In this document: positions 2,496 to 55,732 of the stretch, piece after piece | How the letters are laid out: every line of letters begins with the position of its first letter | Position numbering within the stretch: position 1 is the stretch's first letter | DNA from: a bacterium | GTDB lineage: Bacteria > Cyanobacteriota > Vampirovibrionia > Gastranaerophilales > JAILCC01 | Reading direction: 5' to 3' | DNA length: 64,000 nt | Assembly (NCBI GenBank): GCA_024680555.1 | Contig: JAILCC010000019.1 | Location: 62,001-126,000, forward strand | Translations under genes and position numbers: made by a program | Notes under the pieces: model-generated | Database searches by the model: none | What the model saw: only the letters and a program-made list of their open reading frames with translations | Told to the model about the DNA's origin: nothing

Positions 2496-3332
2496 TTATC
2501 TGTTTTTTGATAAAGAAATTGTATTCTTCATAAGCAATGCTATCGTCATAGGTCCGACGCCTTTTGGTACAGGAGTAATATATGATGCCTTTTCTTTTAC
2601 ATTCTCAAAATCGACATCCCCAACGATTTTTCCATCCTCAAGTCTGTTAATACCGACATCAATAACAACAGCCCCCTCTTTAATATCACCCGCTTTGATA
2701 AATGTCGGCTTGCCGATTGCAACAACAAGTATATCAGCCTGCTGCGTTATAGCGCACAAATTTTTAGTCTTGGAGTGGCAGAGAGTAACCGTTGCATTTG
2801 CGTTTGTCATCAAGACTGCAAGTGGTTTTCCCACGATATTTGAACGACCGACGATAACAACATTTTTACCCTCGGGAGATATATTGTATTCTTTTAGTAA
2901 TTCCATTATGCCCAATGGGGTACATGCCGTTGCGTATGGTATATCACCTGACAGAAGCTTGCCCAGATTGTAAGGATGAAAACCGTCAACATCTTTTGCG
3001 GGAGAAATCTTGTTTATAATTTTTTTCTCATCGAACCTTTTTGGTAACGGTAGCTGAACCAAAACCGCATCAACATCATCCTTGTTTGAAATAAGTTCTA
3101 TATTTTTTTCCAAACTTTCTTGTGTCTCACAATCGGAGAAAGTATATACTTCTGACTTTATCCCAAGCTCATAAGCCTTTTGCGCTTTTTTATTCACATA
3201 AATTTTGCTTGCAGGATTATCACCCACCAACACAACTGCCAAAGACGGAACTTTCTTTAAGAGAGCCACCTCTCGCTTTAAATCGGAAGTTATTTTGTCT
3301 GCTAAGTTTTTTCCGTCTAATATAACTGCCAT
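2496..3332 (-). CDS. folD: Bifunctional methylenetetrahydrofolate dehydrogenase/cyclohydrolase FolD
   Basis: Interconverts 5,10-methylene-, 5,10-methenyl- and 10-formyl-tetrahydrofolate with NADP, in the cytosol. The 278-residue length is normal. The catalytic domain shows YVNKK (active-site lysine), VQLPLP and DVDGFHP; the Rossmann part shows VGRSNIVGKPLAVL and the C-terminal ITPVPKGVGPMTIALLM signature. The ATG follows the stop codon of the upstream CooC-like gene by two bases and uses a GGAG that lies inside that gene's end, so the two are almost certainly cotranscribed. The pairing with a CooC-like protein hints at one-carbon or CO metabolism, but no other gene of such a pathway is in the window. 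Confidence 0.97.
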   Translation of the reverse strand: MAVILDGKNLADKITSDLKREVALLKKVPSLAVVLVGDNPASKIYVNKKAQKAYELGIKSEVYTFSDCETQESLEKNIELISNKDDVDAVLVQLPLPKRFDEKKIINKISPAKDVDGFHPYNLGKLLSGDIPYATACTPLGIMELLKEYNISPEGKNVVIVGRSNIVGKPLAVLMTNANATVTLCHSKTKNLCAITQQADILVVAIGKPTFIKAGDIKEGAVVIDVGINRLEDGKIVGDVDFENVKEKASYITPVPKGVGPMTIALLMKNTISLSKNR

Positions 3333-6953: not shown

Positions 6954-7583
6954 TTACGCTTTATTTTTCGGTCCGGAGGTAAGGTAAGCAATGATACCAA
7001 GGGCTACTGCGCAAATTCCTGCCCATTTTGCAGCTGCTTTAATTTTGAAGCTCTTTGCTACTTTTTGAAGTCCTTCACCAAGGCTTTTGTTAGCTCCTTC
7101 AGTTATAAATTTGCCGTCTTTAACTAAGCCGTCAATTACACCTTTTTGTGCATTGTGTGTAGCTTGAGCTGATGCTGATTCAACAAATGTTTTTAATGTT
7201 TCTGCATTTGTAACACCTTCAAGCCCTTTTGTTATTGCTTCACCTTCAAGACCGTGTGTCTTCAATGTGTTAACAATACCTTCTTTGAATGTTTTCAATG
7301 CAGCTTCTTCAGCCGGAACTACTGTTTTTGTAGCATCTTTTAAACCTTCAAGATATGTTTTTAATTCAGGTTTAACTGCACTGTTTACTGCTGCTTCAAA
7401 TGCTGTTTTTGCTTCGCCTTCCAAGCCTTCAGCTGCTGCTTTTACAAATTTGTCTGTGGCTTTGTTATCTTTTAAAGCTTTTGTTAAAAAGTATCCGCTT
7501 GCGCCACCTGCGACTGCACCAGCTGCTATACCTGTACCGGTATATGCACCTGTGTTATCTGTTACATTACTTACTCCTGTCAT
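6954..7583 (-). CDS. Unknown 209-residue protein with two membrane-like segments
   Basis: I do not recognise a family. The N-terminus has a glycine- and alanine-rich, glycine-zipper-like stretch (GTGIAAGAVAGGASGYFL, about residues 16-33). The C-terminus has a hydrophobic helix (WAGICAVALGIIAYL) followed by a short basic tail. Between them lies an alanine/lysine/glutamate-rich, probably helical region of about 140 residues with an EGLEGEA motif occurring twice. No cleavable signal peptide is evident. It stands alone between a terminator and a strong promoter-like element that belongs to the AGCAA/TTTAAT group. A membrane-associated or pore-like protein is conceivable but unsupported. Confidence 0.75.
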   Translation of the reverse strand: MTGVSNVTDNTGAYTGTGIAAGAVAGGASGYFLTKALKDNKATDKFVKAAAEGLEGEAKTAFEAAVNSAVKPELKTYLEGLKDATKTVVPAEEAALKTFKEGIVNTLKTHGLEGEAITKGLEGVTNAETLKTFVESASAQATHNAQKGVIDGLVKDGKFITEGANKSLGEGLQKVAKSFKIKAAAKWAGICAVALGIIAYLTSGPKNKA

Positions 7584-7681: not shown

Positions 7682-7710
7682 TTTACATAACTTTACAAAA
7701 ATGTTAATAT
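7682..7710 (+). promoter_or_regulatory. Promoter six bases from the start codon (leaderless transcript)
   Basis: TTTACA (7682-7687), a 17-bp spacer and TAATAT (7705-7710) form a good vegetative promoter. The -10 box ends only six bases before the ATG at 7717, which predicts transcription starting at the start codon. There is no Shine-Dalgarno sequence. Confidence 0.55.
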
Positions 7711-27571: not shown

Positions 27572-28480
27572 CTATTCTTCAATAATTCTGCGCATACCCA
27601 TTCTGTTTGTCGTAAGGATATTTCTGAGTTTCATAATAGCCTGTGCGTGTAATTGGCAGCAGCGTGACTCTGAAATTTTCAGCATTGCACCGATTTCACC
27701 GAAAGTCATGTTTTCGTGATAATAAAGCGTTAGCAGCATTCTTTCCCTCTCCGGCAATCTCGACAAACCTCTTATTAAATCTTTTTTTGAATCTTTTTCT
27801 TCCAATTTTTCAAGCGGAGATGCTTGACTCTCGTCTTCAATTGTATCAATGATTTCAATTCCTTGGTCCTGTTTATCTTTTGTCGCATTCAATGAAACTA
27901 CATTTCCGACATTTGCATTCTTCATAACCTCAAGGAATTTTTCTTCTGTAAGCCCTACTTTTGCCGCAAGTTCGGCATCTGTCGGCATTCTACCCAATTC
28001 TTTCTGCATTATTTGAGATATTGCATTGATTTCTTTTTGTTTTTTTCTTACTGCACGAGGCACCCAATCTTGTTCTCTTATGCGGTCAATGATTGCACCT
28101 CTGATTCTCGTCAAGGCATAAGTTTCAAATCTTGCATTTTTATCCGGAGTATATCTTTCAATAGCGTTTATCAATCCTTCTACTCCAAAACCGCTAATAT
28201 CTTCAGATGCAATATTGTCCGGCAGGCTGACTCTAATACGACCTACTACATATTTAATTAAATATATGTATTGAACAATAAGTACATCTTTAATTTTTTT
28301 ATTCGACCTGTCTGTGATGTATTCTGCCCAGAGGTTATTTAATTCTTCCTCTGTAAGCTTCTTCATTTTCTTTTGCGACAAATGCATCTGATTTATAGCA
28401 TCCATTAAACCCAACTTCTCCCAAGATTTTTCTCTCTCCATTTTATTTTGCATTTTTATTACGAATTCGTCATCATACAT
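27572..28480 (-). CDS. fliA: RNA polymerase sigma factor of the FliA/WhiG (sigma-28) family
   Basis: Alternative sigma factor. From region 2 onward it is a standard group 3 factor: LWAEYITDRSNKKIKDVLI, YLIKYVVGRIRVSLPDNI, EDISGFGVEGLINAIERY, FETYALTRIRGAIIDRIRE, DWVPRAVRKKQKEINAI, region 3 with ELGRMPTDAELAAKVGLTE, and region 4 with RLPERERMLLTLYYHENMTF and GEIGAMLKISESRCCQLHAQA. The family normally recognises TAAA-N15-GCCGATAA promoters and two exact such sites occur in this window. The start is unresolved: the frame is open to 28570, with ATGs at 28480, 28453, 28441 and 28402, none with a strong ribosome binding site. No flagellar or anti-sigma gene is nearby. Confidence 0.92.
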   Translation of the reverse strand: MYDDEFVIKMQNKMEREKSWEKLGLMDAINQMHLSQKKMKKLTEEELNNLWAEYITDRSNKKIKDVLIVQYIYLIKYVVGRIRVSLPDNIASEDISGFGVEGLINAIERYTPDKNARFETYALTRIRGAIIDRIREQDWVPRAVRKKQKEINAISQIMQKELGRMPTDAELAAKVGLTEEKFLEVMKNANVGNVVSLNATKDKQDQGIEIIDTIEDESQASPLEKLEEKDSKKDLIRGLSRLPERERMLLTLYYHENMTFGEIGAMLKISESRCCQLHAQAIMKLRNILTTNRMGMRRIIEE

Positions 28481-30239: not shown

Positions 30240-30350
30240 TTCCCGCACTCTATATAATAAACTACTATAATTTTCACATAAAATTTTTTAATTTATTTCA
30301 AAAAGTAAAAGTTTTTTGTAAACTTTTGTAAATTTTTAAAATAAAATCCT

Positions 30351-30377
30351 AAAGTTTCATCCAATAATGCCGATAAA
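30351..30377 (+). promoter_or_regulatory. Sigma-28-type promoter of the giant repeat-protease gene
   Basis: TAAAGTTT (30351-30358), 11 bp, GCCGATAA (30370-30377): an exact match to the FliA (sigma-28) consensus as known from enteric bacteria. The start codon lies 36 bases after the -10 box and AAAGGA provides the ribosome binding site. Confidence 0.85.
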
Positions 30378-30413
30378 AGCAGTATCAACAAAATTATCGA
30401 AAGGAAAACTAGC

Positions 30414-33400
30414 ATGGAAATCTTAAAGGTCGGAGACGAATTAGCGCTCAGCGGGTACAAAGCGATTACCCTAGCGGACGACATGTCCCAAAATATCGCA
30501 GAATTTGCAGAAGTAAACGGAGTTAGTGAAGCAGAAGCACAAAGAATTCTGTACACTTCCCCTGCTCTCAGAGAGTTTGTTGATTCGCTAGATTCCCAAG
30601 ACGCAGAAGATGATATCGTTCTTCTCGGTGATTTTGTTGACGATACTGAAGAAATAAATGCTATCGCTAAAGCAGGCGCAGGTGCTACCATAGGAAAAGC
30701 AGGTAGCGATAACAAACCGGAAGTTACTTATACACTGAACGGCGTTAGCTTCAAAATAATACAAAACGGAACATCAACTCCAAGTTGTAAAACAAGCGGC
30801 AAAAACAAAGTTATTATCACAGGTAAAGATATTGAAATCGAAATTCTTTCTTGCACAAATGACAAAGCTGTTGTTGAAACAAACGGAAGCAATCTTAAAT
30901 TAACTTCTACTGCACACGTTAAACAAATTATCAACAATGCTAAAGATTCAGAAATCATTGGTTCTTCAAAAGCTGATGATATCGTAAACAAAGGCGACGG
31001 TTCTACAATAAGAGGCGGTTCAGGCAACGATAAAATTAAAAACACTGCAAAAAACACAACAATATATGGTGATGCAGGCAACGATACAATTAAAAATACA
31101 GGTAAAAAAGCAACTATAGATGGTGGCGCAGGTTACGATACAATTAAGAGCACCGGTAAAGATTCAAAAGTTGAAAATGCAGAAGTTGGCGACCAAGTTA
31201 CCTCAAACAAAAACACAACAATAAATAGAAACTTTGATGATGTTCAAACTATTTCAGTAGGCGGCATAAAATTAAAAGTTACAGCAAAAAATTCAAATAG
31301 TACTTTTAGTTATAAAGAATCATCTACAACCGTTAAAATTGACGGCAAAAACACAAAAGTTCCTGTTATTACAATTACTGCAAACAAATGTCGTATTGAA
31401 ATCGCAAGTGCTTCAAATGCTAATACTAGAGTTGTATTAAAAGGTAAAGGAAACGAATTAAATTCAACTGCAAAAGTTGGTATGATTACAAACTACGACA
31501 ACACAGCAAAAATTGTAGGCTCAGATGAAAAAGATAAGATTGTCAACTATGGTAGCTATGCAACTATAGATGCTGGAGCAGGTAACGACAAAATAACAAA
31601 CAAATCAGCAGGCTTCGGAGCAACTATCATTGGCGGCATAGGTAACGATACAATTACTAACGAAGCAAATTCCAAAAAAGTAAACGGTACATCTTATCAC
31701 GTAACTATTTCCGGCGGCGCAGGCAATGATACAATTAACAACAGCGGCAAAGGCGCAGTTATTGACGTCAGAGATGGTGATGACACTGTAAATCAAACAA
31801 AAAATGTAGCTTCAACAGTTACTGGTGTTACAGATAATGATAAAATTACAGGCAAAACAGATAAAGTTAACATAAAATTATTCGCATCATCCATCAAAGC
31901 CGGTGAAATCGGTTCTATCGAATATGCTATTTCTAAAATCAGCGGTCTTACCAGATCAGCAGTTAAAGAATACGAAACTGACTCTCAAGGCAGAGTTATT
32001 GCTTTATATTTAGATAACAAAGCTCAAAATGTATATCGTATCGGTTATGGCAGCGCTGGTTTACTCCAAGCTGACGGTTGCCCTCAATTAAGCAATGTTA
32101 GCTTGACTATTACTCACGAAGTAAATCACAAAACCACTCAACAAATTGCTCTTGATGCATCAGGTAAGAAAGTACATCAATATGACCGTACAGAAGAATC
32201 TAAAGGAGAAGTTATCACTTCTACTCTGTACGATGATGCCGAACAAGCAACCTCAAAAATCACAACAGGCAAAGCAAATGATGGAACAATTCGCTATACT
32301 CTAAAAAATAACGCAGTTTCTTCTGATTATCCGACTATAGAGACAACAGCTTCTCAATTAAAAATTTCATTCAATGATAATACAGGCACAGCAAGAACTC
32401 TTACAATAAAAGATGGCGAAACTGTTGAAATAACAAAAACAAATGATACAGAATTTACTGTTAAAGTAACTAAAAAAGATGGTACAAGCCAAGAATATAC
32501 TTGCATTAAGCCACAAGAAGGTGCAACAGCTATAGGTTCTAAAGAATACCTCCAAAGCTTAGACTCCACTCTTAATATGGATAATGCAACTGATATTGAA
32601 CGTGATTCACAAGGCAGAATTACTGCATTCCAAATAGGAAATAGACGCTTTAGAGTTCAATATAATGGTACAACCGTTTCAATATGTAACTCAAGTTTAT
32701 TCGGATTAAATTCAGGTGAAGAATTACAGCCTGCTTCTTATAGCGAAAATCGCGCTTTGTTTTACGATGGTCAAGATTACATTTTATCAATATACGAAAA
32801 CGGTAAACTTGCTAGCAGAACAACAGAAGCATATAATTTGGTAGATGGAGTTTTAGTAGAACAACATACAAGTACAATTTATAATACTTCAACAGGCAGG
32901 ATAAGCGAAGAAAACACAGGCAAAACCTTCAGAAACTCTGATATGAGCATGATTGGTGGCTACATTACACGTTCATTAAATTATGATGCAAACGGTGTTC
33001 CACAATCTGTTGAAACCAAAGGTGAAAAAATGGGTGAAGATGGAGAACTCATCACGACATACACCATTCAAGACCAACTCGTAGGTAACGGCTATCCGAA
33101 ATTCACAGACGGAAACGCTACACAAGGTAAAATCAGCTTCTCCTCAACAAAAACAATTAATGTTCCTTTCACAGACGGTGCAACTACTGCATCAGCAGTC
33201 ATTGCTGCCGACGGTAAAGTTACTGTAACCGAAACATTAGCAGATGGTGGAACTAAAGTTACTAACTTTGATAGAAACGGAAACGAAATCGGTGATATCG
33301 AAATAACTCATCCTACAGAACATCACGATGTTGAAGGCGGTTCTTATGACCACTCAGAAACAACTGTTGGTGACCAAACAACTCACTCTTATGTCGGTCA

Positions 33401-36400
33401 TACTACTGAAGGCACTCAAACATTCTCTATAACAGGTTTAAATACTTCTGTAGCAACAGTTTCTGTTAGCGATGCTCAACATGCCACAATCACTTTCTGC
33501 AATACAAATCCTGCTCGCACAGTTCAAATCGGCAACGGTGATAGTGCAGTATTTGGTGCTGACGGTAAATTAACAGTCAGAAGACAAGACGGAACAACTG
33601 AAGTATACAGAACAAACGGTACCGGCGTTGGTACAATGGAAAGCAGAACACAAACTTCCGGCAACACAACAACAGAAGAAACTTTCAGAGAAAACGGAAC
33701 GGTTTCCGAAAGAACCGTTACCGCTACTGCTGACGGCACAACAACCACTACACATACAGTATTTAAAGCTGACGGCACTTCCAGAGAAAGTGAAACAGTA
33801 ATTAAAAGAGATTCTCAAGGCAACAGACTTTCTCAAGTAACAAGAGAAAACTTCAACAATGACGGTTCATTCACTGAAACAATCAAAGGATTTTCTGATA
33901 ATAAAGAATATTATTCAGTTACTTACAAAAACAACGGCAGCGAATACCCTCAATTTGATCCGAGTGCAAATAGCAAATCTCTTCAAATACATATGTCAGC
34001 TTCCGAATCATTCTCAATTACAAATGGTTCAAGCGTAACAATCTCTAACGACGGAAAAACTGCAGTTGTTACTCAAACTAACGGTGTAATCAGAACATAC
34101 ACTCTCGATGCTGCCGGCAACATGACAATGACTACAAACGTTTCAGATCTTACTCCTCCGGAAATCACATTACCGGACGGAGACGGTGAAGATACTAATA
34201 CTAATACAAATAAAAACCTTCTCGGTATGTTCGGCTTATCTGCTGATTCAAGAATTACTGAAGGCCCGACCGAAAGAACTGCAACCGAAACTAATATTTA
34301 CGGCGAAACAGTAAATGTAAAAATCGTTGAAATAAAAGTAAACGGCAAAACTTATACTGCAAAACTTGATGCAGCTACAGGCGAACTTCTTGAAACAAAA
34401 GAAAACGGTACAGTTAAATACCAAAAAGAAATTGACCAAGTTAAATTGAAAACATACCAGCTTGAAATAAAAAAACAAGAACTCGCTAATACCCTTTGGG
34501 AATTATTAGCAAATTACCACTCAAGAAAATCATTGATGACTGAAATTAACAATTCTATAAAGTGGGCTCTTGAAAACTTTAACGGAGAAACACAGGAAGA
34601 TTTATTAAATGCAATCAAAGCTAATTTGTTCTCATTAGGTATAAACTCCGGAACAATAGACAGCGCTTGGGAAAATGATTCTTTCTATGGAAATACCTTA
34701 AGGAATGAATTCGGCAGTATACTAACCTTGTCGACAGAATTAGCAAATGCTGAAGCAGAAGAAGCAGCTAAACCGAACAAAATTGTTACTAAAACAGTAA
34801 ACGGTTTGAGCTTCAAAATAGAATATCCTAAAAACGGTACAGAACCGACTATCACTTATAATGCTTCAACAAAAACATACACTGTTTCAGGCAGCAATTG
34901 CAAAATTGAAGTTTTGGGTTACGGCGAACAAAAAGATGCAAACATCGTTATCGAAAACGGTTCTAACATCGAATTCAGCTCAAGCTTTACAAGATTTAAC
35001 AGCATTACAAACAAAGTTGACGGTGCAAAAATCACAGGCAGCGCAGGTAATGACAACATTATCAACGAAGCTGCAAACGCTATAATCGACGCAGGCGACG
35101 GCAACGACACTGTTAACAACAGCGGCGCAAATGCAACTATCAACGGTGGCGCAGGCAAAGACAACATCACTAATAGCGGCGCAAATACAACCATCAATGG
35201 CGGCGCTGGTGATGATATGATTTCAAATACCGGCAACGGTTCAACAATCAGCGGCGGCAATGGTGACGATATCATTAGAAACAATGGTTCAAACGTAACT
35301 ATCAACGGCAACGCAGGCAACGACCAAATCGAGAACCGTGGTTCAAACACAACTATTAACGGTAACGCAGGTGATGACAGAGTTATCAACTATGGTGACG
35401 GTGCAAAAATTTACGGCAACGACGGTGACGACACTATCTACCATGTAAACGGAACTGTTTCAGAAATGGATGCAGAACACAAAATCAAATTCCTCAGAGA
35501 TCCTAATCACTGGTTAGATAGCGATAGCGCTTCTGATTGTGCACCAATCGAACCGGAAACTCCTCCTGTAGAGCCTCCGGTAGTCCCTCCTCCAGTAGAT
35601 CCTCCTGTAGTTCCTCCGGTAGTCCCTCCCGGCAATAGTGATGATCCAAACTACACATATATGCAAACATTCACAAAAAACGGCATAACTTTCAATTTCT
35701 ACTCAAACACCGAAATCACTGAAGACCCTTCTTCTTTAGCAGAACAAGTTGTTACAATCAATGCTTCTAACTGCAAAATTGTTGTTACAGCTAACACAAA
35801 TCCTAACGCAGGCATCAGATTGGAACAAGGCAACACAAACATTGATTTCCAAACTAATGTAAGACTTGCATCAATCTGCAACTGGGCAAATAAAACAAAC
35901 ATTACAGGCAGCGATGCTAACGACACAATCATCAACTACGGTAATGAAGTTGAAATCTTAGGCGGAAACGGTGATGACGCTATATCAAACGAAGGTTCAT
36001 CAGTAACAATCGCAGGTGGTGACGGCGCTGACAGAATTCAAATTTGGAAAGGTACAAATGTAAGCGTTAATACTGACAGATATGATGATTATAATGACTA
36101 CACAAACCAAGCTCAATGTACGGGAGAAGGCTGCCACGCATCACAACCCGCAACTGCTGATACAATAAAAACATATATGTCAAGCAGCACACTTACAACA
36201 GCTCTCGGACTTTCTTCTTCAGAATTCACTACATTCATCAGCCACTACTATGGCAAAGACGGATATGATTCATATGAAAAAGTATTAGAACTCTTCAAAC
36301 AAATCGAAGTTATTTATGAAAACAGTGATAAAGATTCGCAAACAATAGCAAGTATCAAAGCTTGTATGACAGGCAGCTCAAAATTCAACAATGAAATACT

Positions 36401-37409
36401 TGCAGATGCATCAATCATTCTTAAAGCCCAAGAAGCAGGCGCAGTTGGTTCTGCAGCTTATAAAGCTTCTATCAAATCTCAAATGGTTAAAGACGGTAAA
36501 AGCAATGCTGCAGCAGGCGATGTTTACAAAGAAAATGGAAACCTTTACTACAGAACCGGTACAGGCAGCAACGACTATGTCCAACTTGAAATTTCTGAAG
36601 ATACATATCTTGAACTTTTCGAACCCGTAAAAAGATTTATTGTAGAACAAGGCAGCAGCGCAGATTGTTTCTTACTTTCATCAGCAATGGTTGATTGTAT
36701 GGAAAATGTACAAGCAAGAGGCTCTATCCTTAAAATGTTTAAAGAAGAAAACGGAAACATAATAGTTAAAATCCCCGGAGTATCACAATACCCTGTGACA
36801 TTTGATAACGGAGACCTTAAAACAACTACAGGAATTGTTTCTTCAGCTAAAGGTTTGCAAATGCTTGAACAAGCTTATGCACTCGCTAAATTTGCAGAAG
36901 TTATAGATTCAGGTATTTCAAATCAAGATATTACTGATTTACACAGTGCAGAGTTAGCAGCAGCAGTAAGAGCAGCAAAAGCAAACTCAGCATTAAGAAA
37001 CAACATCGAATATGCAATGAAATTCTATGTAGGCGGCTGGTTCACAGGTAACGGCGACTGGAGCCGTTTTAAAGATATCAAAGGTGTTCTTAACGATTTA
37101 TTCCCGAACACATCTTCCAGCAACTTCGGCACAATCGGAACATCTGCAGCAAGCTTGAAGTCAGTAGCAGATGTACTTCCCGGCGGCAACTACGTTATCA
37201 CCGCAACTTGTCAAAAAGTTAGCACCGCAGATGCAGCAAAATACAACCTTTCAAGCAAAGAAGCACACCAATTATCTATAGAAAGTATTGACATGGACAA
37301 CAAAATAGTATACGTTAGAAATCCATGGGATAGTTACAGATTAACACCTATTCCGTTTGCTGATTTCGAAAGAATGTTCAGTTCAATAGATTACAGAAAA
37401 TTATCATAA
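30414..37409 (+). CDS. Giant repeat protein with C-terminal calpain-like cysteine protease
   Basis: 2331 residues, no signal peptide. Order: N-terminal acidic region (1-95); four modules, each a beta domain starting NG-x-S/T-F-K followed by RTX-like repeats of the form TI-x-GG-x-G-x-D-x-I-x-N (about 105-260, 275-475, 1459-1680, 1745-1890); a long central part (about 495-1300) with RHS/YD-like strands such as DSQGRVIALYLDNK and DSQGRITAFQIG; a coiled coil near 1340-1450; a proline-rich linker (EPPVVPPPVDPPVVPP) near 1715-1740. The C-terminal 270 residues resemble family C2 proteases: EQGSSADCFLLSSAM with Cys2085, SKEAHQLSIES with His2285 and YVRNPWDSY with Asn2303. The gene has a sigma-28 promoter and a partner gene 14 bases downstream. 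Likely surface or secreted; route unknown. Confidence 0.88.
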   Translation: MEILKVGDELALSGYKAITLADDMSQNIAEFAEVNGVSEAEAQRILYTSPALREFVDSLDSQDAEDDIVLLGDFVDDTEEINAIAKAGAGATIGKAGSDNKPEVTYTLNGVSFKIIQNGTSTPSCKTSGKNKVIITGKDIEIEILSCTNDKAVVETNGSNLKLTSTAHVKQIINNAKDSEIIGSSKADDIVNKGDGSTIRGGSGNDKIKNTAKNTTIYGDAGNDTIKNTGKKATIDGGAGYDTIKSTGKDSKVENAEVGDQVTSNKNTTINRNFDDVQTISVGGIKLKVTAKNSNSTFSYKESSTTVKIDGKNTKVPVITITANKCRIEIASASNANTRVVLKGKGNELNSTAKVGMITNYDNTAKIVGSDEKDKIVNYGSYATIDAGAGNDKITNKSAGFGATIIGGIGNDTITNEANSKKVNGTSYHVTISGGAGNDTINNSGKGAVIDVRDGDDTVNQTKNVASTVTGVTDNDKITGKTDKVNIKLFASSIKAGEIGSIEYAISKISGLTRSAVKEYETDSQGRVIALYLDNKAQNVYRIGYGSAGLLQADGCPQLSNVSLTITHEVNHKTTQQIALDASGKKVHQYDRTEESKGEVITSTLYDDAEQATSKITTGKANDGTIRYTLKNNAVSSDYPTIETTASQLKISFNDNTGTARTLTIKDGETVEITKTNDTEFTVKVTKKDGTSQEYTCIKPQEGATAIGSKEYLQSLDSTLNMDNATDIERDSQGRITAFQIGNRRFRVQYNGTTVSICNSSLFGLNSGEELQPASYSENRALFYDGQDYILSIYENGKLASRTTEAYNLVDGVLVEQHTSTIYNTSTGRISEENTGKTFRNSDMSMIGGYITRSLNYDANGVPQSVETKGEKMGEDGELITTYTIQDQLVGNGYPKFTDGNATQGKISFSSTKTINVPFTDGATTASAVIAADGKVTVTETLADGGTKVTNFDRNGNEIGDIEITHPTEHHDVEGGSYDHSETTVGDQTTHSYVGHTTEGTQTFSITGLNTSVATVSVSDAQHATITFCNTNPARTVQIGNGDSAVFGADGKLTVRRQDGTTEVYRTNGTGVGTMESRTQTSGNTTTEETFRENGTVSERTVTATADGTTTTTHTVFKADGTSRESETVIKRDSQGNRLSQVTRENFNNDGSFTETIKGFSDNKEYYSVTYKNNGSEYPQFDPSANSKSLQIHMSASESFSITNGSSVTISNDGKTAVVTQTNGVIRTYTLDAAGNMTMTTNVSDLTPPEITLPDGDGEDTNTNTNKNLLGMFGLSADSRITEGPTERTATETNIYGETVNVKIVEIKVNGKTYTAKLDAATGELLETKENGTVKYQKEIDQVKLKTYQLEIKKQELANTLWELLANYHSRKSLMTEINNSIKWALENFNGETQEDLLNAIKANLFSLGINSGTIDSAWENDSFYGNTLRNEFGSILTLSTELANAEAEEAAKPNKIVTKTVNGLSFKIEYPKNGTEPTITYNASTKTYTVSGSNCKIEVLGYGEQKDANIVIENGSNIEFSSSFTRFNSITNKVDGAKITGSAGNDNIINEAANAIIDAGDGNDTVNNSGANATINGGAGKDNITNSGANTTINGGAGDDMISNTGNGSTISGGNGDDIIRNNGSNVTINGNAGNDQIENRGSNTTINGNAGDDRVINYGDGAKIYGNDGDDTIYHVNGTVSEMDAEHKIKFLRDPNHWLDSDSASDCAPIEPETPPVEPPVVPPPVDPPVVPPVVPPGNSDDPNYTYMQTFTKNGITFNFYSNTEITEDPSSLAEQVVTINASNCKIVVTANTNPNAGIRLEQGNTNIDFQTNVRLASICNWANKTNITGSDANDTIINYGNEVEILGGNGDDAISNEGSSVTIAGGDGADRIQIWKGTNVSVNTDRYDDYNDYTNQAQCTGEGCHASQPATADTIKTYMSSSTLTTALGLSSSEFTTFISHYYGKDGYDSYEKVLELFKQIEVIYENSDKDSQTIASIKACMTGSSKFNNEILADASIILKAQEAGAVGSAAYKASIKSQMVKDGKSNAAAGDVYKENGNLYYRTGTGSNDYVQLEISEDTYLELFEPVKRFIVEQGSSADCFLLSSAMVDCMENVQARGSILKMFKEENGNIIVKIPGVSQYPVTFDNGDLKTTTGIVSSAKGLQMLEQAYALAKFAEVIDSGISNQDITDLHSAELAAAVRAAKANSALRNNIEYAMKFYVGGWFTGNGDWSRFKDIKGVLNDLFPNTSSSNFGTIGTSAASLKSVADVLPGGNYVITATCQKVSTADAAKYNLSSKEAHQLSIESIDMDNKIVYVRNPWDSYRLTPIPFADFERMFSSIDYRKLS

Positions 37410-37423
37410 TTAAAAGGTGAAAA

Positions 37424-37768
37424 ATGGCTAACATTGATATAGAAAAAGAATTTAAAGAAATTGAAGAACGCATAGCACAAGACAGCGCTATGAATAAGGA
37501 TATTACGGCGCATCTGCGCAAAAAAGCAAGACTGTTGAGAATATGCTATGCACAAATGTCTGATGCAATGAGACTTGGCGTATTAAAAAAAGAAGCTCCG
37601 ATATTTGCAAAAGAATTGGCATTTTTAAACAACATCAAAAAAATTCAAACTCAAATAAATGAAGATGTTTCCGATACGGATGAAGAAATAGCAAAAGTAC
37701 ATAAACAAATGTATGACAACGGTTTTGGCTGGATTTTGGAAAATCTCCCCAAAAAAGTTGAAGAATAA
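37424..37768 (+). CDS. Small helical partner of the giant protein (114 residues)
   Basis: Unrecognised, entirely helical and charged (MANIDIEKEFKEIEERIAQD at the start), no signal peptide. It lies 14 bases after the giant gene with AAAGGTG before its ATG, so it is transcribed from the same sigma-28 promoter. A size of 114 residues and an acidic-basic helical make-up would suit a dedicated chaperone or immunity-type inhibitor of the upstream protease; both are inference from position. Confidence 0.7.
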   Translation: MANIDIEKEFKEIEERIAQDSAMNKDITAHLRKKARLLRICYAQMSDAMRLGVLKKEAPIFAKELAFLNNIKKIQTQINEDVSDTDEEIAKVHKQMYDNGFGWILENLPKKVEE

Positions 37769-53515: not shown

Positions 53516-53555
53516 CCTGTATTGTAAACAATTGTAACAACTTCACTTGAAAGCC

Positions 53556-53582
53556 TAAAGTTTCAAAAAATTATGCCGATAA
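53556..53582 (+). promoter_or_regulatory. Sigma-28-type promoter of the EF-hand protein
   Basis: TAAAGTTT (53556-53563), 11 bp, GCCGATAA (53575-53582): an exact match to the FliA consensus, like the one at 30351. The start codon is 83 bases farther, with AAGGAG before it. Confidence 0.85.
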
Positions 53583-53665: not shown

Positions 53666-55732
53666 ATGGAAATTTCAAAAGTTAATTATGCTGAAATCGC
53701 AGGTAAGTTTAACTTAACAGATACTTCATTTGATACTTACGATGTCAACAAAGACGGTAAAATAACCGAGGAAGACATGACTGCGGCAACTGATGACTCC
53801 GTCAAAACCACAATCAAACGCTTACTTAATGCTGCAGATGAAGAGTCTTCAGTAGAAAAAGGAGGTACCGAAAAAGAAGGCACTCCTATAGAAAAAGACG
53901 CAATAACCGAAGAAAATGCGGAAAAAGCCGCAGAAGACATAATTGATTCGGTTAAAAAAGGTGTCAATGATCCCAAAAATGCAAAAACCCTGAACCAACT
54001 TCAAAACATGGGGCTTACATTAACAAAAGAAATTGAAGCCTGCGCAACTATCTCCAAAATACTTGAAGCCAAAATAAAAACACAGGATGAAGAACTGAAA
54101 AAAATAGAAAAAGAAAAAGAAGAAAAAGCACAAGAATATGCAAACAAAGAAAAAGATGTTGAATCCAAATCAGAAGAATTAAGCATTGCAGTAAGAGAAA
54201 CATTGGCAGCAGCATCTGCATTATCCGAAGAACGACAACAATCAGCTGATGCAATAATCAAAAAATGCGTTAAAGATTATGCCAATGGTGAATACCCCAA
54301 CCAGTCTCTCCAAGCTGTAATTGAAACAAATTTATTTAACAATGCTTTCAGTACCTCAATATTGAAAAACCGAATTGCAGAAAATGAATTTCTTGGGGCT
54401 GAAATAAACAATCTTTGTGCAGAAATTGACACACTTGTCGGAGATATCAAATCCATATCAGAAAAATACAATGCAAAAAATGCCGAACGCAACAATACAA
54501 ATAGTCTTTTAAACGGCATAACCGATGCTGCAACAAAAGCAAATCAACAATATCAATCAGGTTATGAACGCCGAGAGACAATGCGTCAAGAAATCATTAA
54601 CCAATATAAGGTTCAAGGCGTTACTGCCGGAGACAAAGCTACAGACAACAACCCTCAAGTCCAAAAACTCGGCGAATTCTTGGATAATAAAGAACTTGAT
54701 AATATGCCGTTTGCCGATGCTTGGGCTATATTAACACAAACCTTTGACCAATGCGGTTTAAAATTCAATGAAAATACCGGTGCTATTTCTATCCCATATG
54801 GACACAATGCCGGAGCTAAAAACATATATAACGCATTAAAAGATGCTTTGACGAGAAACTATAAAAATATCGTTTCCCAATACGAAGATCAGGAAGAAGG
54901 CTTTGAAGATGACGAACAACCTGCAGCAGGCGGTGTTACAAACATCAACAGAACCGATCCTATATCATTTACAAACGGCGATATAAGATATGACTTTATA
55001 AGTGACAAGAACAAGAACGGAGTATTAGATAATGCATCCGAATTTGTCGGCGCAAAAAATGGTTGGAAAGAAATGGAAGCATTTGACAAAAACGGCGACG
55101 GAATATTATCCGGCGATGAATTGAAAGATATAACCCTCGCTGCCACAAACCAAACAAACGGTCAATTTAATTTCGTATCTGCAGAGGAAGCCGGCATTGA
55201 ATCAATTAATCTCAATTCTTTCAAAATGCTAAATCAAAAAGAAGTAAATAAAGATATTACCGTCGGAACATTCCAAATCAACATGACAGATGGACAAACT
55301 ATTGAGGGCAAACAAACCGAAGATACAAACAGGAACATTGCCAATACGTATTCAACAATGTTTGGTACCAAGATTGAAGATCGTACAGGTGCTTACGATG
55401 ACAATCCGTTCATGGAAGAGTTTGCAGAGACAACTGATACTGCCCAAGCAATATCAAAGGCAGAAGAAACAATAAGCTCTGCACAAACAGAAGCCGATAG
55501 CATTATTCAAGAAGGCGAAATGCAAGTAAATCGCAAAGCGGAAGACGGCACAATTGAAGGCGAACGAGCAAAATCAGAAGCCGATAAAAAAGCTGAAAAA
55601 GCAGAAAAAGCAGCCAAAAAGAAAGAAGAAGCCAAGGCTGAAGAGGAAAAAGCCGAAGAAAAGAAAGCTGAAGAAAAGAAAACCGCAGAAAAAAAGGCAG
55701 CAGCAAAAAAAGCAGGGGCTAAGAAAAAATAA
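53666..55732 (+). CDS. EF-hand coiled-coil protein under a sigma-28 promoter (688 residues)
   Basis: No signal peptide. Residues about 20-40 form an EF-hand loop (FDTYDVNKDGKITEEDM); about 430-480 hold two more (DKNKNGVLDNASEF and DKNGDGILSGDEL). Between them are long coiled coils (about 120-200, DEELKKIEKEKEEKAQEY; and about 240-310). The C-terminal 90 residues are a lysine/glutamate/alanine tail (AEEEKAEEKKAEEKKTAEKK), unusually monotonous. Calcium binding is predicted by the loops, the rest is unknown. A terminator follows. The shared promoter suggests joint expression with the giant protease gene. Confidence 0.85.
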   Translation: MEISKVNYAEIAGKFNLTDTSFDTYDVNKDGKITEEDMTAATDDSVKTTIKRLLNAADEESSVEKGGTEKEGTPIEKDAITEENAEKAAEDIIDSVKKGVNDPKNAKTLNQLQNMGLTLTKEIEACATISKILEAKIKTQDEELKKIEKEKEEKAQEYANKEKDVESKSEELSIAVRETLAAASALSEERQQSADAIIKKCVKDYANGEYPNQSLQAVIETNLFNNAFSTSILKNRIAENEFLGAEINNLCAEIDTLVGDIKSISEKYNAKNAERNNTNSLLNGITDAATKANQQYQSGYERRETMRQEIINQYKVQGVTAGDKATDNNPQVQKLGEFLDNKELDNMPFADAWAILTQTFDQCGLKFNENTGAISIPYGHNAGAKNIYNALKDALTRNYKNIVSQYEDQEEGFEDDEQPAAGGVTNINRTDPISFTNGDIRYDFISDKNKNGVLDNASEFVGAKNGWKEMEAFDKNGDGILSGDELKDITLAATNQTNGQFNFVSAEEAGIESINLNSFKMLNQKEVNKDITVGTFQINMTDGQTIEGKQTEDTNRNIANTYSTMFGTKIEDRTGAYDDNPFMEEFAETTDTAQAISKAEETISSAQTEADSIIQEGEMQVNRKAEDGTIEGERAKSEADKKAEKAEKAAKKKEEAKAEEEKAEEKKAEEKKTAEKKAAAKKAGAKKK

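Follow-up and report, generated by a model that had tools for sequence, protein, structure and literature searches.

In a genome of the Gastranaerophilales, a non-photosynthetic cyanobacterial order, sigma-28 promoters are joined at a fixed distance to an upstream HLR1-type box, and the FlhA-type export protein belongs to a conserved lineage separate from that of the flagellum. The explanation that we consider probable, if far from certain, is that the sigma-28 holoenzyme would read TAAAGTTT-N11/12-GCCGATAA, while an RpaB-type response regulator, bound to an HLR1 box centred ∼60 bp upstream of the transcription start, would activate transcription. The ∼30 composite promoters would drive proteins that mostly lack a signal peptide (giant RTX-type repeat, EF-hand, thioredoxin and helical-end proteins), and these products would be the late cargo of a second export apparatus derived from the flagellum, made up of a FlgB/C/F/G rod, FliE, FliF, a C-ring protein, FliH/I, FliO/P/Q/R and FlhA2. 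Some relatives would have this second apparatus next to a true flagellum, and the flagellin-less ones would have it by itself. Computation establishes the promoters, the regulon, the constant phase of the box, its conservation, the RpaB orthologue and the separate lineage of the apparatus; binding and activation by RpaB, export through FlhA2 and the timing are inferred steps. The genome scanned is a MAG of 1.79 Mb in 25 contigs (87% complete); the window, that is the whole 64-kb stretch of DNA analysed, comprises positions 62001-126000 of contig 18.

Sigma-28 promoters and upstream HLR1 boxes

The original prediction had placed an exact FliA promoter at 30351-30377. A scan of the window confirmed the match, TAAAGTTTCATCCAATAATGCCGATAA, at 16 of 16 positions with 0 mismatches, its true position on the forward strand being one base further left at 30350-30376 (Table 1). 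The same pattern occurs again at 53556-53582 (+) ahead of the ORF 53666-55732, a second exact promoter that the first reading had missed. The gene at 27572-28480 had been taken for a FliA/WhiG-type sigma factor, and its score against TIGR02479 (FliA/WhiG), 242.7 with a cut-off of 189.6, bears this out; Sigma70 regions r2, r3 and r4 are all present. Its named relatives are Candidatus Gastranaerophilales/Melainabacteria MAGs, and one close orthologue was found in 57 of 60 relatives, in all 50 high-quality genomes and in all 38 flagellin-less genomes of family f2. The sigma factor and the TAAAGTTT-N11-GCCGATAA motif strongly co-occur, and on sequence grounds it is predicted to recognize that motif.

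Table 1. Features located in the window
Feature	Position	Strand	Basis
HLR1-type box, 16/16, without a sigma-28 site, before ORF 6954-7583 (-)	7682..7699	-	consensus score
Sigma factor of the FliA/WhiG family, with one clear orthologue across the order	27572..28480	-	family profile and orthologue search
HLR1-type box in reverse complement, TTTGTAAACTTTTGTAAA, 16/16, starting 35 bp before the -35 element	30315..30332	+	consensus score
Sigma-28 -35 element TAAAGTTT	30350..30357	+	motif scan
Sigma-28 -10 element GCCGATAA, spacer 11	30369..30376	+	motif scan
Ribosome-binding site AAAGGA	30400..30405	+	read directly in the sequence
RTX-type repeat protein of 2331 aa lacking a signal peptide	30414..37409	+	profile search, orthologue comparison
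114-aa helical protein, 14 bp downstream of 30414-37409, probably same operon	37424..37768	+	position
HLR1-type box ATTGTAAACAATTGTAAC, 16/16, phase as at the first promoter	53521..53538	+	consensus score
Second exact sigma-28 promoter, -35 element	53556..53563	+	motif scan
Second exact sigma-28 promoter, -10 element	53575..53582	+	motif scan
688-aa EF-hand/coiled-coil protein, N-terminal class MEI.K...DxDGKI, without signal peptide; paralogues elsewhere in the regulon	53666..55732	+	

The genome-wide motif scan proposed with the prediction returned six exact copies, against none for the reversed pattern. The free-spacer pattern TAAAGTTTN{8,15}GCCGATA gave 20 sites, all with N11 or N12, against 0 in the reversed controls; in 18 of them a start codon follows the -10 element within 85 nt, while one start codon is 273 nt away and one site lies within a gene. 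When three mismatches were allowed, the pattern was no commoner than its control, and we therefore relied only on near-exact sites. About 30 sites with TAAAG and GCCGATA at a spacer of 11 or 12 were collected. The near-exact motif and the association of such sites with genes support the proposal that sigma-28 drives the large protein of the window, and transcription of the gene 30414-37409 is very probably due to it. The gene is one of ∼30 targets and no isolated case.

Alignment of the sites revealed TTGTAA at -34 and/or -24 relative to the -35 element. Written in full, the upstream box is WWTGTAAM-N2-WWTGTAAM, which on the opposite strand reads as HLR1, for which the consensus KTTACAWW-N2-KTTACAWW has been given (PMC13421787). 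The best box of 23 of the 30 sites falls between -34 and -36, counted from the -35 element. Boxes at position -35 itself score 12.6 on average, compared with 6.4 at random, and 19/30 sites score at least 13/16 there, compared with 0.06% of random positions. Within 120 nt, a box of at least 13/16 accompanies 26/30 sites (random, 7%). With a transcription start assumed 7 nt downstream of the -10 element, the box spans ∼-69 to -52; the activating position of HLR1 in cyanobacteria is ∼-45 to -66 (PMC13421787). The same arrangement is seen in relatives, where 16 of 31 sigma-28 sites have an in-phase box (random, 1.2%); at flagellin loci it was present at only 1 of the 4 sigma-28 sites found, a small number. 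Some sigma-28 sites lack an HLR1 box and some boxes stand without a sigma-28 site. We had considered that all HLR1 boxes might be sigma-28-linked, and dropped this idea with 16 of 36 strong boxes linked in 505 kb. The genome also encodes an RpaB orthologue (G000 C24:95418-96158), which scores 369.4 against the NF045944 equivalog cut-off of 330.

It is hardly conceivable that the 16-position match is a chance event in AT-rich DNA. Matches with three mismatches are indeed as frequent as their control, but the counts of six to 0 for exact and 20 to 0 for near-exact sites, together with gene association and conservation, refute chance at the level of sequence. A more serious contender, although still a somewhat unlikely one, is that the TTGTAA repeat is bound by RpaA or another OmpR-type regulator, or that it is an AT-rich UP element. 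OmpR-family regulators generally bind direct repeats, and other response regulators are present in the genome stretches examined. However, the two half-sites have the exact HLR1 spacing and consensus and keep to a narrow phase, the RpaB of this genome scores above a curated cut-off, and HLR1 boxes stand upstream of rpaB; nor does an UP element require TGTAA twice at 10 bp. Apparently it is an RpaB-type regulator that activates the composite promoters through HLR1. The boxes upstream of rpaB itself number two (L129:3150-3225; rpaB start 3419) and may point to autoregulation.

Products of the regulon and their phage-borne relatives

The 2331-aa protein of the window contains calcium-binding nonapeptide repeats, and the gene of its orthologue in L065, from a member of the same family, has a 14/16 sigma-28 site with a perfect HLR1 box. 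The name ‘protease’ that it had been given is unsupported. Neither Pfam (E ≤ 5) nor a PDB sequence search gave its C-terminus a protease identity, and an AlphaFold model of this region made with no alignment (pLDDT 47), likewise empty, was set aside. The calpain-like Cys/His/Asn look of the C-terminus (EQGSSADCFL / AHQLSIESI / VRNPW) is an eyeball impression. The protein had also been described as exported in type; it does lack a signal peptide, and its export is presumed from that lack and from the company it keeps in the regulon. We would guess that the 114-aa helical protein encoded next to it is an export chaperone.

An N-terminal hydrophobic stretch is missing from 23 of the 25 regulon products examined, while the remaining two have a signal peptide or a prepilin-like start. 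Class i is defined by an N-terminal EF-hand-like module, MEI[ND]KI..F......FEDLDVN.DGKI, found 13 times here, once in the sister species and nowhere else; 10 of the 13 genes have a sigma-28 site (TAAAG + GCCGATA), and one of the proteins has a thioredoxin domain. Class ii consists of giant repeat proteins, the product of 30414-37409 among them. Fusion of the EF-hand N-terminus to thioredoxin-like CxxC domains was noted as a genus-specific expansion at L130:9573-11117, L140 (gene at 780, -) and L134:7619-9952, the thioredoxin domain being above the Pfam cut-off only in L130:9573-11117. Behind a sigma-28 + HLR1 promoter, L137:5361-9689 (+) encodes a prepilin-like protein of 1442 aa, in which ephrin-receptor-like repeats occur seven times (PF07699, E 3e-34).

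Class iii is a family that begins MG[LM]SASQARLLSITARL and has a conserved C-terminal helix. This helical-end family is present in 60/60 genomes, with 7-15 copies in the flagellin-less f2 genomes and 1-6 in flagellated genomes. In flagellin-less f2 genomes, 13 listed members are immediately preceded by a strict sigma-28 site, compared with an expectation of 0.02. Members were also collected by protein search alone, and five of the nine scored have a site of at least 13/16, compared with 0.5% in shuffles. In the AlphaFold model of a phage-borne member, only the long helices at both ends are confident, the middle not being resolved, and a Foldseek search with this model gave no fold match. As modelled, the helical ends resemble flagellar axial proteins, in architecture only. 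A small helical gene pair (85-90 aa and 109-110 aa) was noted at L137:18655-19282 and L154:4586-5203. The 109-110-aa protein consists of just the two conserved end helices and is a candidate needle or rod-like subunit. The operon of 85- and 109-aa genes has a 14/16 sigma-28 site and an in-phase 16/16 HLR1 box; its counterpart in G004, with 90- and 110-aa genes, scores 13/16 for both.

Viral contigs from IMG/VR were scanned as well, and eight class iii members were found (L266-L273, the gene at 3001 in each). Each of the eight combines a sigma-28 site scoring 12-15/16 with an in-phase HLR1 box scoring 12-16/16; three of the loci are near-identical. Their neighbours include terminase and head-tail genes, or in L266 tail and virion-like genes. 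These phage-borne genes of the MGLxASQARFL family look like lysogenic-conversion genes, and the occurrence of the composite promoter on mobile elements supports its function.

The flagellum and the second export apparatus

The original prediction had remarked that no flagellar gene lies in the window, and none of this genome's matches to the FlhA, FliP, flagellin and MotB markers falls within its 64 kb. Flagellar genes were also to be looked for in the genome as a whole, with a divided outcome: flagellin (Flagellin_N) was not found in this genome, whereas flagellar-type export and basal-body genes are present outside the window. Because this MAG is 87% complete, its own lack of flagellin is not proof, and the absence rests on the 38 f2 genomes (nearly all 99% complete), none of which has flagellin; 21 of the 60 genomes do. 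MotB was found in 20 genomes, flagellated ones only, and is absent from all f2 genomes and from the present one (G000).

FlhA occurs in two forms, and the distribution of FliP parallels them. The flagellar form, at 859-891 bits, was found in 19 genomes, all flagellin-bearing. The other form, FlhA2, at 668-736 bits, is full length in 56/60 genomes, including this one and 37 of the 38 f2 genomes; G044 (f2, 99% complete) has no full-length FlhA2. With E. coli FlhA as the outgroup, the tree separates flagellar FlhA and FlhA2 into two clades, with a mean identity of 76% within FlhA2, 71% within flagellar FlhA and 37% between them. FlhA2 is thus a separate and better conserved lineage, which argues that it is not debris. 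In G003 the FlhA2 scores under the equivalog cut-offs of both FlhA (690 versus 772) and SctV (586 versus 692), while the flagellar FlhA of that genome scores 873.

In the present genome the FlhA2 operon runs in the order FlgF-like, FlgG-like, FlgB-like, FlgC, lytic transglycosylase, FliE, FliF, unknown proteins, FliG-like, FliH and FlhA2. FlgB, FlgC, FliE and FliF were assigned by Pfam and NCBIfam matches, the FlgB-like one being marginal; the FliG-like protein has no Pfam match and is our own reading. A second locus encodes a FliM/N-type C-ring protein, FliO, FliP, FliQ, a 117-aa protein and FliR. FliI, at a separate locus, scores as a member of the FliI/YscN subfamily and lies under both equivalog cut-offs. 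A 14/16 sigma-28 site precedes the start of the FlgF-FlhA2 operon by 27 nt, and no strong HLR1 box accompanies it; this site is weaker evidence because loose matches are common. A claim that the hook is absent was dropped because flgE and flhB are listed for MEL.A1; Di Rienzi et al. gave both genes as common to all four of their genomes, MEL.A1 included (PMC3787301).

Partial flagellar gene sets have been interpreted as flagellum loss (PMC3787301, PMC4040986, PMC5877343). The regulon and export genes would then be leftovers of a decaying flagellum, with the sigma factor surviving only through unrelated acquired targets. This is the published view for MEL.A1 and the koala genomes (PMC3787301, PMC4040986), and it gains from the sigma factor still being used at some flagellin promoters of flagellated relatives (a 15/16 site before flagellin in L193); most flagellin promoters in these relatives have no sigma-28 site. 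We consider decay quite unlikely, since FlhA2 is a distinct, better conserved clade that coexists with flagellar FlhA, and the apparatus occurs throughout the order, the 38 near-complete genomes that lack flagellin included, together with a sigma-28-linked family in multiple copies. It is also unlikely, if less strikingly so, that a real sigma-28 regulon yields large RTX-type products which are secreted by a type I system or remain in the cell, the flagellar-type apparatus serving other cargo. RTX-type repeats such as the nonapeptide repeats of the window protein can mean type I secretion, and the repeat proteins and FlhA2 are not directly linked. However, the gut types were reported to lack a type I secretion system (Di Rienzi et al., PMC3787301), and sigma-28 control and a missing signal peptide are all that most of the products have in common.

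We favour export of the regulon products, as late substrates, through the FlhA2 apparatus. Only tentatively would we go further and propose that the order possesses a third kind of flagellum-derived machine, rod-bearing and motor-less, with an axial-type family of its own (helical ends, 109-110 aa in the minimal form). Its late genes may be turned on via sigma-28 and a pre-photosynthetic RpaB circuit, and phages may tap it with cargo genes under composite promoters. The open literature searched contained no account of a T3SS for this order.

Comparison with known systems

Sigma-28 in bacteria without flagella is already known, as is the re-reading of a ‘relic’ as an export system, in Myxococcales (PMC3459982). 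New are the RpaB/sigma-28 composite promoter, an order-wide second apparatus with flagellar rod genes, the large regulon and the phage copies. The late regulon of flagellar sigma-28 (FliA/SigD) in E. coli, Salmonella and B. subtilis shares with the present one the sigma family, the promoter consensus and the pairing of the sigma factor with a flagellar-type export gate. In contrast, there are here no flagellin, stator or filament targets, the spacer is 11 or 12, an HLR1 box lies upstream, and the targets are repeat, EF-hand and helical-end proteins. Streptomyces WhiG is likewise a sigma factor of the FliA/WhiG family in a bacterium without flagella, where its role is the control of sporulation; to our knowledge it is not linked to any export apparatus. 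Sigma-28 is also kept without flagella in Chlamydia, which has a T3SS and flagellar orthologues, but the regulon there is reported to comprise two genes, hctB and tsp (PMC10597470), compared with ∼30 targets and a second conserved element here.

The cyanobacterial RpaB-HLR1 regulon (PMC13421787) is alike in its RpaB equivalog, HLR1 consensus, spacing of the two half-sites and near-activating position. Here the box is joined to sigma-28 promoters in a non-photosynthetic host, and its distance upstream is ∼3-7 bp greater. An export gate, ATPase and C-ring without filament or motor are also found in non-flagellar T3SS, among them the secretin-less systems of Myxococcales formerly read as relics (PMC3459982). 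The genes flgB, flgC and fliE, which define flagella, are absent from non-flagellar T3SS (PMC3459982), whereas FlgC, FliE and a FlgB-like protein are present here, flagellum-specific FlgF/FlgG are kept, and FlhA2 falls under the SctV cut-off. Buchnera, whose flagellar basal bodies lack a filament, is similar in being a host-associated bacterium of reduced genome size that has basal body and export genes; no secreted proteins are reported to have been identified for it (PMC8109811), whereas the present system has a large candidate substrate regulon.

Di Rienzi et al. reported in 2013 that non-photosynthetic Melainabacteria have RpaA, RpaB and NblS, which ‘may have another function’ (PMC3787301). 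The HLR1 boxes that keep a constant register with sigma-28 promoters supply concrete, testable targets for RpaB, unexplained in these bacteria since then. Instead of ongoing loss, the partial flagellar sets of non-motile gut members seem to represent an apparatus that is separate and conserved and has a regulon to itself. If this is true, common gut bacteria own an unrecognised secretion route, and the best-known light/redox regulator of cyanobacteria may have governed secretion before photosynthesis.

Two minor features of the export genes were noted. In the second apparatus, the genes for FliQ and FliR flank a conserved one for a ∼120-aa protein with a signal-peptide-like start (L208:18262-18615; L210:8492-8860; L211:7915-8280). 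Free-standing proteins like the soluble C-terminal half of FlhA, its substrate-docking domain, occur in nearly all 60 genomes (L128:10549-12006, -; L129:9972-10979, +; second-rank FHIPEP matches in relatives).
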